33,628 nucleotides of DNA, taken from Acidobacteriota bacterium. Its GTDB lineage: Bacteria > Acidobacteriota > Thermoanaerobaculia > Thermoanaerobaculales > Thermoanaerobaculaceae. Numbering within the stretch: position 1 is the stretch's first letter; each line of letters opens with the position of its first letter. Shown here in pieces: positions 19,545-26,182 of this stretch. The DNA lies in the NCBI GenBank assembly GCA_003158745.1, contig PMLC01000065.1, positions 64,269 through 97,896 on the forward strand, written 5' to 3'. The notes under the pieces were generated by a model that was not told where the DNA came from, made no database searches, and saw nothing but the letters and a program-made list of their open reading frames with translations. The translations under genes and the position numbers were made by a program.

Positions 19545-20503
19545 GACCCGTTCCCCCGCCGGGCCTCGTCGTGCGCCTCGTACGCCGCCACCACCTTCTC
19601 CACCAGCTTGTGACGCACCACATCCTCTTTGAAGAAGTCGAAGAAGCAAATCCCGGTGAGGTTCCCGAGGATTTGCCGCGCCTGGACCAGCCCCGATGTC
19701 TTCTCGTTGGGCAGGTCGATCTGCGTGACGTCGCCCGTTATTGCCGCCCTGGAATGGAACCCGAGCCGAGTCAAGAACATTTTCATCTGTTCTGGGGTCG
19801 TGTTCTGGGCCTCGTCAAGGAGCATAAACGAATCGTTGAGGGTCCGGCCCCGCATGAACGCGAGCGGCGCGATCTCGATGACACCGCGCTCGAGGTGGCG
19901 CGCGACCCGGTCGTACCCGAGGATGTCGTAAAGCGCGTCGTACACCGGCCGCAGGTACGGGTTCACCTTCTCGACGAGGTCCCCGGGCAGAAACCCCAGC
20001 CGCTCCCCCGCCTCGACGGCCGGGCGCGTCAGCACGATGCGTTTGACCCGGTGCTCCGCCAGCGCTGCGGCGGCCATCGCCACGGCCAGGTACGTCTTCC
20101 CGGTCCCAGCCGGTCCGACAGCGAACACCAGGTCGAACTTGTTGAGGGCTTGGATGAACAGTCGTTGCTTGAGGTTTCGGGGGACGACCAGCCGTTTGAC
20201 CGAATCGGGTATCGAGGCGTCGGTGAAAAACTCAACCAGATCAACACCCGGATCCTCTTCGAGCACCCGCAGCGCTGTCCGGAACTCCTCCTTGCCGACC
20301 GAGTACCCGCTCGCCAAGAGCTTGCCGAGCGCCTGCAGGAGCTTGCCGGTCAGCTCGACGGCCTCGGGGTCGCCGTCCACGGACACGGTGTCGCCGCGGG
20401 CCGTGAGGCGAACCCGCAACCTCTCTCCGAGGTAGCGGAAGTTCTCGTCCAGGGTGCCCGCCAAGATCTCGAGATTCCTCTCCGGGAGGGTCAGTACGGT
20501 CAT
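19541..20503 (-). CDS. phoH: PhoH family ATPase (YbeZ-like)
   Basis: A 320-residue P-loop protein. Walker A GPAGTGKT is at 130-137 and Walker B LLDEAQN at 229-235. The N-terminal region (1-100) resembles the small RNA-binding-like domain of YbeZ. PhoH/YbeZ works with YbeY in RNA metabolism, matching the gene order here. ATG at 20503 overlaps the stop of the upstream gene (ATGA) and has GGAG at about 10 nt. Confidence 0.95.
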   Translation of the reverse strand: MTVLTLPERNLEILAGTLDENFRYLGERLRVRLTARGDTVSVDGDPEAVELTGKLLQALGKLLASGYSVGKEEFRTALRVLEEDPGVDLVEFFTDASIPDSVKRLVVPRNLKQRLFIQALNKFDLVFAVGPAGTGKTYLAVAMAAAALAEHRVKRIVLTRPAVEAGERLGFLPGDLVEKVNPYLRPVYDALYDILGYDRVARHLERGVIEIAPLAFMRGRTLNDSFMLLDEAQNTTPEQMKMFLTRLGFHSRAAITGDVTQIDLPNEKTSGLVQARQILGNLTGICFFDFFKEDVVRHKLVEKVVAAYEAHDEARRGNGS

Positions 20504-21084
20504 GCCGCCGATCGCTCCAGAGTACGCTCGCGAACCGCCCGGACGATCCGCTCAACGTCATATCTCGTCACGATCGTCTCGTGCAGGGCCAGCCCCTCCG
20601 GTGAGCCCCGGCGCATCAGCTCCTCCGAGTCGCAGTACAGCCACTCGCTGTTCTCTCGCACGATTACCATGTCGATATCTTCGGCGGCGATAAGTTCGAG
20701 CGGGTTGAGGCTCTCTTGCAGACACCGCACCGGCCTCAGATTGATGAAGAGGTCGAACTGGAACCCCATTCCCAGGAGGATCTCGCGCATGTACTCGCCG
20801 TCAGGGACCCGGGGGTCGCCAAAAGCAGCCGCGAGGATTGCGTCGAACGAGCGCAAGCGGTCGAAGCCGTTGGGGGGAACCGCCCGCCCGGTGGCCAGGA
20901 ACCGCTCCGCGCCCCACTCCAGTTCCTCCCACTCCGCAACGAAGTGACCGGCAGAGCGCAGTGCATCAGCAAGCGACATTGCCTTGGCAACAACTTCCCG
21001 CTCAATCCCGTCGCCCGGCAGTACCACGATCCGGACCGGCTTCGCGCTCATCTCCTGCGACTTTCGTCCCGTCACGTTCCCCAT
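20500..21084 (-). CDS. half-length isocitrate/isopropylmalate dehydrogenase family protein
   Basis: A 194-residue protein that matches only the N-terminal half of the LeuB/Icd/TtuC family (usually about 350 residues): RIVVLPGDGIERE, NLRPVRCL, VIVRENSEWLY and HETIVTRYDVERIVR are in the expected order. The chain ends right after that helix. The C-terminal part with the catalytic Lys and the Mg-binding aspartates is absent, and phoH starts on its stop codon (ATGA). It should not be a functional dehydrogenase. It may be a remnant kept for translational coupling, or a domesticated binding protein. The start is ATG 21084, 9 nt after the upstream stop; ATG 21051 is also possible. Confidence 0.8.
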   Translation of the reverse strand: MGNVTGRKSQEMSAKPVRIVVLPGDGIEREVVAKAMSLADALRSAGHFVAEWEELEWGAERFLATGRAVPPNGFDRLRSFDAILAAAFGDPRVPDGEYMREILLGMGFQFDLFINLRPVRCLQESLNPLELIAAEDIDMVIVRENSEWLYCDSEELMRRGSPEGLALHETIVTRYDVERIVRAVRERTLERSAA

Positions 21085-21093
21085 AAGGTCAGC

Positions 21094-21633
21094 TCAGCTT
21101 CGGCCTGCCCAGAGCACGTCGGGAGCGCCAGCCCGGCGGTTGAGCCATCGCGCCAGCACGAAGAAAGCATCGGAAAGCCGGTTCAACGTCGGGATGACGA
21201 TTGCCACGCCGTCACCGCGCTCGGAGAGAGCGACGACGCTCCGCTCGGCCCGCCGGCACACCGTCCGAGCCTGATGTGCCAGCGTTGCGGCGCGCGTCCC
21301 CGCCGGCAGCACGAAGTTCCGGAGGGGCGGAAGCTCCGCCTCCATGGCGTCGATCCAGCCTTCGGCCCAAGTGGGCTGGAGGACCTTCTCCGAGAGGATG
21401 AACCGGGCTTGCGGGTCTGCCACAAAAGCGCCTACCTCGAACAGCAGAGACTGAATTCGCTCCAGCTCGGCCCCGGCCTCCGCCGGAAGCTCCTCCGCGC
21501 GCAGCACGCCCAGAACCGCGTTAAGTTCGTCGACGTCCCCGTAAGCGGCGACTCGCAGGCTGGCTTTCGAGACTCTCGAACCGTCGCCCAGGCCCGTGGA
21601 GCCGTCGTCGCCGGTCCGCGTGTAGACCTTCAC
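21094..21633 (-). CDS. cob(I)yrinic acid a,c-diamide adenosyltransferase, PduO type
   Basis: A 179-residue ATP:cob(I)alamin adenosyltransferase (PduO/MMAB family) that makes adenosylcobalamin. The N-terminal ATP-binding motif TRTGDDGSTGL, GDVDELNA, the VCRRAER helix and the C-terminal LNRLSDAFF are all present. The start is GTG 21633, sharing one base with the TAG of the kinase gene (TAGTG), with no clear ribosome-binding site, so translation probably depends on coupling. No other cobalamin gene or B12-dependent mutase is in the window. Confidence 0.93.
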   Translation of the reverse strand: MKVYTRTGDDGSTGLGDGSRVSKASLRVAAYGDVDELNAVLGVLRAEELPAEAGAELERIQSLLFEVGAFVADPQARFILSEKVLQPTWAEGWIDAMEAELPPLRNFVLPAGTRAATLAHQARTVCRRAERSVVALSERGDGVAIVIPTLNRLSDAFFVLARWLNRRAGAPDVLWAGRS

Positions 21634-23705
21634 TATTTTATGTTATCACCGTTCGCGCCCCCATCGGGTTGACGCCCCGTGAGTTCGGCCACCTTTGCCA
21701 GGAACTCCTCGATACTGAAAGGCTTGATGAGAATGTCCGCGGCCGCGAGGACATCATCTCCGGACGGGTTGTACCCGGTGCAGACGATGACTGGCACTGC
21801 AGGGGCTTGGTCGCGCAGGCGGCGCAACGCCTCACGCCCATCCATGACAGGCATAACCAGATCCAGGACAACAAGGGCAAACTTGTGGGGAGCGCTGACT
21901 ACCTTCTCCACAGCTTCCAGCCCGTTACTTGCCTCGACGACCTCGTACCCCGCGTTCCTCAGCGACCCGGCCAGCGGGATTCGGACCATCACCTCGTCAT
22001 CGGCCAGGAGAACGGCGCCGGTGCGGACCGCACCTCGTTGCACGCCCTCGGCGGCCGTTTCGCCTGCCGCGCATGGCAACTCGAGCCAGGAGCGCCCGCC
22101 CAGGCCGGGCCTGAACGTTCCGCCGGTTCGTCCGCGGAGCCTGGCGGCGATGAGTTCTGCCAGCGCCTGCGCCGTGCGCCGTGAGGAGAACAGCTCCCGT
22201 TGGACGTCGCCTCCAGCCGAAGCATCGCCCTGCGTCCCCGTGTCGGAGAATACCAGGCTCACGGTTCCGGCCTCCCGACCAACGGCTAGCAGAACATCGA
22301 CCGCGCCGCCGAGCTCCATGACCGAAAGCGCCAATGGGAGACTCAGGTCCAGCCATAGGAGGAGCTGGGAAGCGTCGGCCACCACCCTGTCCTCTTTGGC
22401 TTCGCGGCGCACCGTGGCACGGACTTTTCGGGGAAGCCCCGGCTTCACGTTCTCCAACCACCGATCCAGAAGAGGTCCAAGGCGCACCGGGCGCAAAGCC
22501 CCGGACCCGCTCCGCGAGACGGCCACGAGGCGTCGGAGACCGTTCACCGACTGGGTGACAAGACCCTGGGCGACCCTCAGGGTCTGCTCCGCTGGCGTGC
22601 CGCCCTTCAGCTCCTCCAGGAGGCCTAGCAGTGCCTGGAAGTTGTTGCTCACCCTGTGCCCAAGGGAGGCGGCCACGTGAGACAGAGCGCGTTCGCGGGC
22701 AACCGCCGGGAACTCGCGGGAACCCGCAGGCGGAATCCCGAGCTCCACCATCACGAACAATACCCTCGTCACCGCGTTCTCCGTGCGCACGGGAAAGGTC
22801 TTGAAGTCAGTGGGAAGGACGTCTCCATCCCGGCCGAACACGCGCACCTGACCACCACCCGTCCTACCTCGCCGTGCGCGCGCCATCGCAGCCAGAGCGA
22901 CTCGCCAGTGCGAGCGCTCGACAAGGCTCAGCAACGGCTGGCCTTTCAGTCGGCGCAGTTGGTCTCCGCCGCGCTCGACAGCCGCGGCGTTCGCCCAGAC
23001 CAGTTTGCCGGACGGGTCCGTGAGCACGACCGCCAGGGGTATCGCATCGGCTAGCGTCGCCAGCACGGCCTCGGCCTGCTGACCCGGGCTGACCTCTTCC
23101 CAGCGGAGGTAGATCAGGTCTTCGTCGAACTCCCGCGTGGAGGCCGTGGGCACATTCGCGACGAACTCACGGCCCCCGGCTGATCGGAACCGTACGGCGG
23201 CCGACCGTCGAACATCGCTGCCGGAACGGCATCCCTCGAGGTCCCGGGCGAGGAGTCCCCGGTCGCTGTCGGCCGCAAACGTGAGAAAATCCCGCCCTAC
23301 GAGATGTTCTCTCTCACCGCCGGCCAGACTCTCAGCCGCCGCGAGGTTGGCCGCGACAACCCGAGCACCTTGGAGACAGACGACCGGGACAGGGCTGTGA
23401 TCCGACAGCCCCCTCCACCGCCCCTCACGCTGGCGACGTTCTGCGAGGTCCCGCCAGCGGTTGGCCTCCATCGCTGCCGCCGCGTGACCGGTTCGCGCTC
23501 CTCGCCAGGCAACCAGAGCCGTCACGGCGCCTGCCATGAAGACTGCCAGCAGCAACGTTGCCCCTAAAAGGACAGGCCGGACCCCCCGCACGGCCCAAGC
23601 CGCGGGCACCAGCGCGCCGAGAACCAGCTCACCGCCCGCCGCCCTGATCGGCTCCAACACACCGAGCAACCGCTCCTGGCCACGGGCCGTCCGGAGTCTC
23701 ATCAC
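21633..23705 (-). CDS. hybrid sensor histidine kinase/response regulator, C-terminal portion
   Basis: A 690-residue frame from GTG 23705: a membrane helix (about 43-67), two PAS-like domains (about 100-210 and 220-320), a kinase core and a C-terminal receiver. The H-box is LGHRVSNNFQALL (H350). The ATP-binding part is degenerate: where a conserved Asn is expected (about 444-468) the chain reads LDLSLPLALSVMELGG, and the G1 box is DTGTQGD. The receiver (about 567-685) is intact: DDE, phosphoacceptor D615 in LDLVMP, CTGY and KPF. The reading frame continues upstream, without shift, into the 23796-24446 frame past a single TAG. GTG 23705 and ATG 23702 have no ribosome-binding site, so this is probably not an independent gene. 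Confidence 0.85.
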   Translation of the reverse strand: MMRLRTARGQERLLGVLEPIRAAGGELVLGALVPAAWAVRGVRPVLLGATLLLAVFMAGAVTALVAWRGARTGHAAAAMEANRWRDLAERRQREGRWRGLSDHSPVPVVCLQGARVVAANLAAAESLAGGEREHLVGRDFLTFAADSDRGLLARDLEGCRSGSDVRRSAAVRFRSAGGREFVANVPTASTREFDEDLIYLRWEEVSPGQQAEAVLATLADAIPLAVVLTDPSGKLVWANAAAVERGGDQLRRLKGQPLLSLVERSHWRVALAAMARARRGRTGGGQVRVFGRDGDVLPTDFKTFPVRTENAVTRVLFVMVELGIPPAGSREFPAVARERALSHVAASLGHRVSNNFQALLGLLEELKGGTPAEQTLRVAQGLVTQSVNGLRRLVAVSRSGSGALRPVRLGPLLDRWLENVKPGLPRKVRATVRREAKEDRVVADASQLLLWLDLSLPLALSVMELGGAVDVLLAVGREAGTVSLVFSDTGTQGDASAGGDVQRELFSSRRTAQALAELIAARLRGRTGGTFRPGLGGRSWLELPCAAGETAAEGVQRGAVRTGAVLLADDEVMVRIPLAGSLRNAGYEVVEASNGLEAVEKVVSAPHKFALVVLDLVMPVMDGREALRRLRDQAPAVPVIVCTGYNPSGDDVLAAADILIKPFSIEEFLAKVAELTGRQPDGGANGDNIK

Positions 23706-23795
23706 CCAACGTCTCGCATCCGGTTCACTGACAGGTCTTTGGAGAGCCTTACGCCAGTCGGGCCCGAGAAGCCCCCCCAGCGTTCCTAGTGGCCC

Positions 23796-23798
23796 CTA
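23796..23798 (-). other. in-frame TAG interrupting the sensor kinase gene
   Basis: The frame starting at 24446 and that of the 21633-23705 kinase are the same frame. Between them only this TAG occurs; codons on both sides (ASDWDC, stop, then GPLGTLGGLLGPDW) read through without other stops. Without it the product would be a 937-residue kinase. Confidence 0.9.
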
Positions 23799-24446
23799 AC
23801 AGTCCCAGTCCGACGCGAGCAGCAGCCGCCCATCGTCCGCTGCCAGGAAGGCGACTCCCTGTCCATCGGCGGCAAGGCCATCGATCAAAGCGGTCCCCAT
23901 GCGTCCCAGGTCGCTCGCCACGCCCACGGCTCCGAATTCGGTCGAGGCGCCGGGCACAGACACCACGACGAAAACGGTCTTCCCGGCCCCGATTGGGTTC
24001 GACGACACCCCCAGGGACTCGCCGCCTCCTCGGCTCGCCCGGACCTGCGCCTCTTCCAGCGTGACGCGCTCATCCTCCCGCCAGACCCGCGGCGGCGTCG
24101 TCGCGAGAACCCTCCCAATGCGATCCAGGATCATCGTCGCAGCGAAGAGCGCCGGTTCCTTGAGGCGTAGCCTCTCGAGGTCCGCGGCGCAGTCGGTGAC
24201 TGTTCCTGAGTCGCTTGACCCGCACCGTAAAGCGACGCCACGCAGACCCGCGGCGACCTCATCGAGGGGGCGCCGGATTTGGCTTGCGACGAGGCGGACG
24301 GAGCCCTTCATCTGCGCAGCAGCCACTTCCTCGATTGAGCGTTCGGCCGAACGGTTGAAAAGGAGGACACCGGCGCACACGACGACCGCGACCGCGAACA
24401 CGCTCACGAGGATTCCTGAGCACCGATTGGAGGCCTGCTTACTCAT
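23796..24446 (-). CDS. extracytoplasmic sensor portion of the split hybrid kinase
   Basis: A 216-residue frame with one membrane helix (about 10-31) and an extracytoplasmic domain that looks like a CACHE-type ligand sensor (paired strands ending VAFLAADDGRLLLASDW). It lacks the second helix expected for such a sensor, which is found in the same frame in the downstream ORF. It is therefore the N-terminal part of one receptor kinase, cut by TAG 23798-23796. ATG at 24446 is 35 bp from the divergent ggt start, so promoters for both genes must overlap. If only this piece is made, it is a membrane-anchored sensor without output. Confidence 0.75.
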   Translation of the reverse strand: MSKQASNRCSGILVSVFAVAVVVCAGVLLFNRSAERSIEEVAAAQMKGSVRLVASQIRRPLDEVAAGLRGVALRCGSSDSGTVTDCAADLERLRLKEPALFAATMILDRIGRVLATTPPRVWREDERVTLEEAQVRASRGGGESLGVSSNPIGAGKTVFVVVSVPGASTEFGAVGVASDLGRMGTALIDGLAADGQGVAFLAADDGRLLLASDWDC

Positions 24447-24481
24447 TGAACTGTTCTATTCTAACGCTGGGGGATATGCCC

Positions 24482-26182
24482 ATGCGACTCGCTGCCGCAC
24501 TCACGGTCGTTGGCGCGTTGGGAGGCGCCATGGCGTTCGGAGCCGACCGCCCCGAGGGTCGCTTGTTCGCGACCCGTTCCGTCACCGTGGCGCGTCACGG
24601 GATGGTGGCGGCCGCACAACCTCTCGCCGTTCAGATCGGGCTCGAGGTGCTCAAGAAAGGCGGGAGCGCGGTGGACGCGGCGATCGCCGTCGACGCGGCA
24701 CTCGGCCTCATGGAGCCCGTGTCGTGCGGCCTCGGCGGGGACCTGTTCGCCATGGTGTGGGACCCCGCGACGAGTAAACTCTACGGCCTCAACGGCTCCG
24801 GCCGGGCGCCTCTCGCGTTGACCCCCGACAAGGTGCCCCCGGAGAAAGACGGGACGATGCCGGTCTACTCCCCCTACGCCTGGACCGTTCCCGGGTGCGC
24901 CGACGCCTGGTTCGAGTTGCACGAGCGGTTCGGCCGGCTGCCCATGAAGGAACTCCTGGCGCCCACCGTCGTGTACGCCCGGGAGGGCGCACCGGTGCCG
25001 CAGGTCATCGCCGGCTCGTGGGCCCGCAGCGTCGCACGCTTCAAGGACAAACCCGGGTTCGCCGATGTCTTCCTGCCGGGAGGCAGGGCTCCCGCGGAAG
25101 GCGAGCCGTTCGCCAACCCGGCACTCGCCCGCACCCTCGAGTTGCTGTCGGCCGGGGGCCGGGATGCCTACTACCGCGGCGAGATCGCCGAGAAGATCGT
25201 GGCGTTCTCGAAGAAGATCGGCGGCTTCTTCGCCATGGAGGACTTCGCCCGGCACACCAGCGAGTGGCAGGAGCCGATCTCGACAACCTACCGAGGCACC
25301 ACGGTGTGGGAGCTGCCGCCCAACGGCCAGGGTCTCGCGGCGCTCGAGCTGCTCAACATCCTCGAGCGCTACGACCTTAAGGCCATTGGCCGGGACAACC
25401 CTGACTTCTGGCACGTGCTGGTGGAAGCCAAGAAGCTCGCGTTCGCGGACCGGGCCAGGTACTACGCGGACCCGGCGTTCTTCCCGGCGCCGGTCGCCGC
25501 GCTGCTCGATAAGGGGTACGCCGCGAAGCAGGCAGCTCGTATCGACATGACCCGCGCCGCGAGGTCGGTGGAGCCCGGAAACCCCGCCCTGCAGCGAGGC
25601 GACACCACGTTCCTCGTCACGGCGGACGAACGCGGGATGATGGTCGCCCTGATCCAGTCCAACTACACGGGGTTCGGCTCCGGCTACGTCATCCCCGAAC
25701 TCGGGTTCGGGATCCACGACCGCGGCGCCTTGTTCTCGCTCAAGGCGGGGAGTCCGAACGTGCTCGCCCCCGGCAAGCGACCGTTCCACACCATCATCCC
25801 CGCCTTTCTCGGGAAGGACGGCAAGCCGCTGATGGCGTTCGGCGTCATGGGGGGCGACATGCAGCCGCAAGGCCACGCCCAGATCGTCGTCAACCTTGTG
25901 GACCTCGGGATGAACCTGCAGGAGGCCGGCGACGCCCCGCGCTTCTACCATACCGAGGACAGCGAGCCCACCGGGACCGTGATGACGAACGGAGGCGTTT
26001 TAAGCCTGGAATCGGGCGTCGGGCAGGATGTCCGCCAGGCGCTGATACGACGCGGCCACAAGCTCGTGGAGGCCAACGGCATCGTCTTCGGCGGCTACCA
26101 GGCGATCTGGCGCGACCCTAAGACCGGCGTCTACTTCGGCGCCACCGAGTCGCGCAAGGACGGTTGCGCAGCCGGCTATTGA
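24482..26182 (+). CDS. ggt: gamma-glutamyltransferase
   Basis: A 566-residue periplasmic or secreted enzyme that cleaves glutathione and other gamma-glutamyl compounds, made as a proenzyme that splits itself. Residues 1-23 are a signal peptide. The autoprocessing nucleophile is the first Thr of GDTTFLV (T375), equivalent to T391 of E. coli GGT, giving a small subunit of about 190 residues. The substrate-binding block PLAVQIGLEVLKKGGSAVDAA and the GGDLFAMV stretch are present. The start is ATG 24482 because GGGGGAT lies at good spacing; ATG 24476 and 24446 are in frame but poorer. The aminotransferase follows 75 bp downstream. Confidence 0.94.
   Translation: MRLAAALTVVGALGGAMAFGADRPEGRLFATRSVTVARHGMVAAAQPLAVQIGLEVLKKGGSAVDAAIAVDAALGLMEPVSCGLGGDLFAMVWDPATSKLYGLNGSGRAPLALTPDKVPPEKDGTMPVYSPYAWTVPGCADAWFELHERFGRLPMKELLAPTVVYAREGAPVPQVIAGSWARSVARFKDKPGFADVFLPGGRAPAEGEPFANPALARTLELLSAGGRDAYYRGEIAEKIVAFSKKIGGFFAMEDFARHTSEWQEPISTTYRGTTVWELPPNGQGLAALELLNILERYDLKAIGRDNPDFWHVLVEAKKLAFADRARYYADPAFFPAPVAALLDKGYAAKQAARIDMTRAARSVEPGNPALQRGDTTFLVTADERGMMVALIQSNYTGFGSGYVIPELGFGIHDRGALFSLKAGSPNVLAPGKRPFHTIIPAFLGKDGKPLMAFGVMGGDMQPQGHAQIVVNLVDLGMNLQEAGDAPRFYHTEDSEPTGTVMTNGGVLSLESGVGQDVRQALIRRGHKLVEANGIVFGGYQAIWRDPKTGVYFGATESRKDGCAAGY

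Follow-up and report, generated by a model that had tools for sequence, protein, structure and literature searches.

Does a stop codon inside a long receptor-kinase frame mark a gene that has recently been broken, a codon that is read as sense, a boundary between two genes or an error in the assembled sequence? We addressed this question for a locus on the minus strand of a 33,628-nucleotide stretch of acidobacterial DNA (the window), which lies within contig 40 of a genome of 3.74 Mb in 163 contigs (96% complete). The explanation that we favor, with a probability of about 0.72, is a recent nonsense mutation or a segregating null allele.

One reading frame with a single internal stop

The frame occupies positions 24446-21633 and has 937 codons (938 in the translation with the terminal stop). 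It holds one internal stop, a TAG at 23798-23796 that forms codon 217 in the context GAC TGT TAG GGG CCA. This divides the frame into an upstream piece (23796-24446, minus strand), which starts with ATG and encodes in 216 codons the first membrane helix and most of a periplasmic double-Cache sensor before ending at the TAG, and a downstream piece (21633-23795, minus strand) of 720 open codons plus a terminal TAG, encoding the rest of the sensor, the second membrane helix, PAS-PAS, the kinase core and the receiver. The terminal TAG (21633-21635) overlaps the GTG start of a cobalamin adenosyltransferase gene. The first-pass annotation had proposed that these pieces are one 937-codon receptor-kinase frame broken by a single TAG, and both the translation and an alignment to the sister species (G001) confirm it: query residues 1-928, on both sides of the TAG, align in one frame to one intact ORF of 931 aa in the sister (L002) with 54.8% identity, and the matching segment contains exactly one stop. 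Since both sides align with a single sister ORF and a 720-codon open stretch follows the stop, the interrupted frame is more than a chance occurrence.

When orthologues were aligned at this site, as the first-pass annotation had recommended, none of them had a stop in the TAG column. The sister has a Trp codon (TGG) there, one transition away, in a variable loop where the column assignment is uncertain. Two compensating frameshifts, considered as an alternative to a point change, were rejected because the other frames near the TAG gave, by eye, no better match to the sister.

Orthologues and gene order

Across the family, we found a conserved order of a divergently oriented gamma-glutamyltransferase-like gene (GGT), the kinase, cobalamin adenosyltransferase, in some genomes an isocitrate/isopropylmalate-dehydrogenase-like gene (IDH), PhoH and PgpH, and this shared order identifies the true orthologues. 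All six orthologues that carry the sensor (the sister species G001, and G010, G012, G009, G011 and G014 from other genera) encode sensor and kinase as a single ORF, so the two pieces in the window are one broken gene and not, as could have been the case, members of a family in which sensor and kinase are always separate. A tree built from the cytoplasmic part places the window and G001 as sisters (100/98), with five congeners that lack the sensor as a clade (97/97) that is sister to this pair.

Two features of the flanking regions were noted in passing. At the 5' end, the kinase and gamma-glutamyltransferase-like genes diverge with starts about 30 bp apart (window 24446-24482), so their promoters must overlap. 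At the 3' end, the short motif GGTGGTACCAT, which has the extended -10-like form TGnTAnnAT, is found at 21639-21654 (minus strand) and also in L002-L008 and L167. In relatives, it precedes the GTG of the cobalamin adenosyltransferase gene by about 6 nt, and it is kept in the kinase-less G007. Lying within or just past the 3' end of the kinase gene, it may act as promoter of a leaderless transcript.

Domain architecture of the interrupted protein

The protein is a hybrid of dCache, PAS, PAS, histidine-kinase-like and receiver domains. A search of the upstream piece with Pfam gave only a hint of dCache_1 (E=0.14). A model of residues 1-329 was built from three sequences with the TAG read through (pLDDT 68). 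The modeled region comprises a single long helix, a pair of PAS-like modules and the second membrane helix. The first membrane helix, recognized from the sequence at residues ~12-30 (24357-24413, minus strand), is part of a helix spanning residues 3-77 of the model. A double Cache (dCache) ligand-binding domain follows at residues ~34-281 (23604-24347, minus strand), its best dCache match by Foldseek being 5t65_B (PctA; E=5.2e-11), with the histidine-kinase sensor domains 3lif and 3li9 also matched. The second membrane helix, likewise recognized from the sequence at residues ~291-314 (23505-23576, minus strand; helix 289-328 in the model), lies past the TAG in the downstream piece, just as had been annotated. 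A dCache fold is thus found between two membrane helices in this read-through model of pLDDT 68. The TAG falls where the model has a low-confidence loop, in the membrane-proximal sensor module and ahead of the second membrane helix, and because it cuts this module, the 216-residue product would lack a complete sensor.

The cytoplasmic part is modeled as PAS-PAS-DHp-ATPase-receiver, and Pfam found PAS and receiver domains in the downstream piece. The first PAS fold (23103-23399, minus strand) is assigned from the PAS-like order of strands and helices in the model, and the second (22743-23063, minus strand) from both the model and Pfam (PAS_4, E=1.5e-10, and others). A DHp-like helical pair (22503-22709, minus strand; model helices 255-289 and 294-323) has invariant H22, N26 and Q29 in the alignment, with the phospho-acceptor His (22658-22656) invariant in 8/8 orthologues within the motif H-R/K-x-x-N-D/N-F-Q-A. 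The C-terminal receiver (21672-22022, minus strand; Response_reg, E=1.3e-18) carries its phospho-acceptor Asp at 21863-21861 and was matched by VIA-align to 3a0u with Z=19.0 (rmsd 1.6, 113 aligned); the VIA-align matches listed for the kinase model are receiver matches only.

Between the DHp pair and the receiver lies a degenerate GHKL-type ATPase-like domain (22071-22493, minus strand) that keeps a D-T-G motif and whose modeled fold resembles those of histidine kinases and NifL. Pfam recognized HATPase_c in only one of eight family members (E=0.004), and a manual reading of the eight aligned orthologues showed no conserved Asn at the expected N box. The earlier description of this frame as PAS-PAS-kinase-receiver therefore holds for the PAS and receiver domains, which Pfam recovers, and less well for the kinase core, where the ATPase is barely recognized. 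As a separate observation on the family, the eight aligned orthologues all share the DHp His and the receiver Asp but have no conserved N-box Asn, and this kinase family is possibly non-autophosphorylating or a NifL-like signaling protein. Compared with dCache hybrid histidine kinases (dCache-PAS-HK-REC), the protein is alike in having two membrane helices that flank a dCache fold, cytoplasmic PAS domains, DHp-like helices with an invariant His and a receiver with a conserved Asp, but differs in its barely recognized ATPase without a conserved N-box Asn, and in that the copy in the window is interrupted.

Decoding of TAG in this genome

General recoding of TAG was considered and rejected. RF1 is present above the cut-off, a search for PylS found none, and the PgpH gene ends in a TAG at the C-terminus of its relatives' own proteins, where they use TAA, TAG or TGA. 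None of the 41 tRNAs recognized by ARAGORN has a CUA anticodon; this set is incomplete (tRNA-Glu UUC and tRNA-Lys UUU are absent), so the lack of a CUA tRNA is no proof. These results agree with the first-pass view of TAG as a normal stop here and of general recoding as unlikely.

Local readthrough of codon 217 at a useful rate, giving a little full-length receptor kinase in addition to a free sensor stub, is very unlikely for partly the same reasons. The downstream frame is open and conserved, as this explanation would require, and in-frame stops with dN/dS<1 have been reported in bacteria, with readthrough proposed for many of them (PMC7918605). However, such stops mostly persist only briefly in evolution (PMC7918605), the decoding machinery described above offers no help, and the RNA after the stop is not structured beyond shuffled sequences (z=+0.88). 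The window TAG resembles the stops described by Belinky et al. 2021 (PMC7918605) in interrupting an otherwise conserved frame and differs from them in being common to no orthologue. With neither a conserved TAG nor a stimulatory RNA structure, the option of programmed readthrough raised in the first-pass annotation gained no positive support. We consider it highly doubtful that a lineage-specific leaky TAG acts as a switch producing mostly sensor stub and rarely the full receptor kinase, and so forms an intermediate between the full-length and sensorless kinase forms in the genus. If readthrough were true, the finding would matter more.

Repeated loss at the same locus within the genus

We found that loss of the sensor or of the whole gene is common in the genus. 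In five congeners (G002, G003, G004, G006 and G008), the ORF measures ~700 aa and lacks the Cache domain but retains the kinase. A short loop connects the two hydrophobic segments that are left in their proteins (L003, L004, L005, L006 and L007), marking an in-frame, clade-wide loss, and since these congeners form one clade, a single deletion of the sensor domain explains all five. In a sixth, G007, the whole kinase is gone, leaving 282 bp between the adenosyltransferase gene and the GGT match, and that genome gave no match to the kinase. The G005 contig ends at PhoH and does not cover the kinase locus. With the sensor lost in five congeners and the whole gene in a sixth, the locus is under weak or changing selection.

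The retention of a sensorless kinase by five congeners means that a kinase can be kept without its sensor, and bears on whether the window might hold two functional genes, one for a sensor stub and one for a kinase that starts internally and is anchored by the second membrane helix. Several possible in-frame starts precede that helix (GTG 23705, ATG 23702 and GTG 23660, within 23660-23705 on the minus strand), the only AGGAG near them lies ~12 nt upstream of GTG 23660, and the product would be functionally like the sensorless proteins of the congeners. On the other hand, the first possible start comes 31 codons after the stop, making coupling unlikely; the sensorless congeners keep an N-terminal hydrophobic segment that an internally started product would not have; and a split preceded by a start is found in no orthologue. 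No Shine-Dalgarno sequence is visible for the start of the kinase frame itself, which weakens any argument from missing Shine-Dalgarno sites. Overall, we think that two working genes are very unlikely.

Further evidence of decay was seen two genes downstream of the kinase, where the dehydrogenase-like gene of the window (20500-21084, minus strand) encodes 194 aa as compared to 357 aa in the sister. This relic has an in-frame internal deletion of ~160 codons and altered motifs (GDGIG to GDGIE, RENTEGLY to RENSEWLY), and keeps its overlap with the PhoH start. The gene is absent at the locus in the five sensorless congeners and intact in G001, G007 and G009, and two full-length members of the dehydrogenase family are encoded elsewhere in the genome of the window. 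A link between loss of the sensor and loss of the neighboring IDH gene, suggested by seven congeners, was rejected because G007 has an intact IDH gene and no kinase.

Mutation or consensus error

A wrong consensus base at the TAG is possible, and an explanation by such an error, or by a minor strain variant in a metagenome-assembled genome whose living cells have an intact kinase, is unlikely but forms the main rival to a recent mutation. The assembly, with its 163 contigs, looks like a MAG and its named closest relatives are acidobacterial MAGs; the rest of the gene shows no damage and its rate of evolution matches that of the sister; and interrupted genes are often sequencing errors (PMC1852416). 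Resequencing of 73 interrupted genes in Mycobacterium smegmatis traced 28 to such errors, with 0 miscalled bases among them (PMC1852416). We saw no sign of a poor consensus around the locus: the base rate of interrupted genes was taken from contig 40 only, with shadow ORFs excluded, and over ~17 kb of synteny with G001 no gene other than the kinase had its coding frame interrupted by a stop, ~15 syntenic neighbors being free of internal stops (the one other syntenic alignment with a stop has it upstream of that gene's ATG). Repeated sensor or gene loss in congeners, where the locus decays independently, and the decayed gene two downstream in the window favor a real mutation over a miscall.

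Age of the stop and the course of gene loss

The stop is either recent or not real. Tajima-type relative-rate counts for the window and G001, taken for the segments before the TAG, from the TAG to the PAS domains and in the cytoplasmic part, gave no significant difference (highest chi2 3.57), and no second lesion was found in the frame. From these two results, we place the stop as recent. Neutral divergence since the TAG arose has a 95% upper bound of ~0.15 substitutions per site with relaxation confined to the sensor and linker, and of ~0.04 per site with the whole frame relaxed; the window's own branch amounts to 0.36 amino-acid changes per column. Equal rates without a second lesion are expected for a very recent stop and exclude a long-standing pseudogene; they neither support nor exclude pseudogene status as such. 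The first-pass statements that the remaining frame has no other stop and that any loss is recent are borne out, and orthologues, synteny, rates and the single lesion together point to a formerly continuous gene that was interrupted once and recently.

A recent nonsense mutation would then act as follows. The gene was originally one ORF encoding a membrane-anchored dCache-PAS-PAS-kinase-like-receiver protein, in which a recent point mutation would have created the TAG at codon 217. In the sampled population, this TAG would now be either fixed or segregating. Translation would mostly end there and yield an anchored sensor stub without part of the second Cache module, the second membrane helix and all signaling domains, with little or no kinase produced. 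The gene would stand at the start of a path to a pseudogene, at a locus where its genus-mates have lost the sensor only or the whole gene. A correct base call and a complete loss of expression are both inferred. Two observations count against this reading: the gene has kept its kinase motifs and its codon-position bias, as one that continues to be translated also would, and GC3 is low (0.53) in the 30 codons directly past the TAG, a small sample. As in nonsense-type bacterial pseudogenes and ICDS, one in-frame stop interrupts a gene whose counterparts in close relatives are intact, and neighboring genes are mostly intact; the gene in the window differs in having one lesion only so far. Our literature search on sensor-kinase pseudogenes formed by nonsense mutation found nothing specific.

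The finding thus looks like an ordinary one, a gene loss of a common kind and not a new reading of the genetic code. At one syntenic locus in one genus, the same receptor kinase is found intact, interrupted by a stop, deprived of its sensor and deleted as a whole, a small but clear case of loss along several routes that shows which parts of this receptor kinase are dispensable, with no new mechanism needed.
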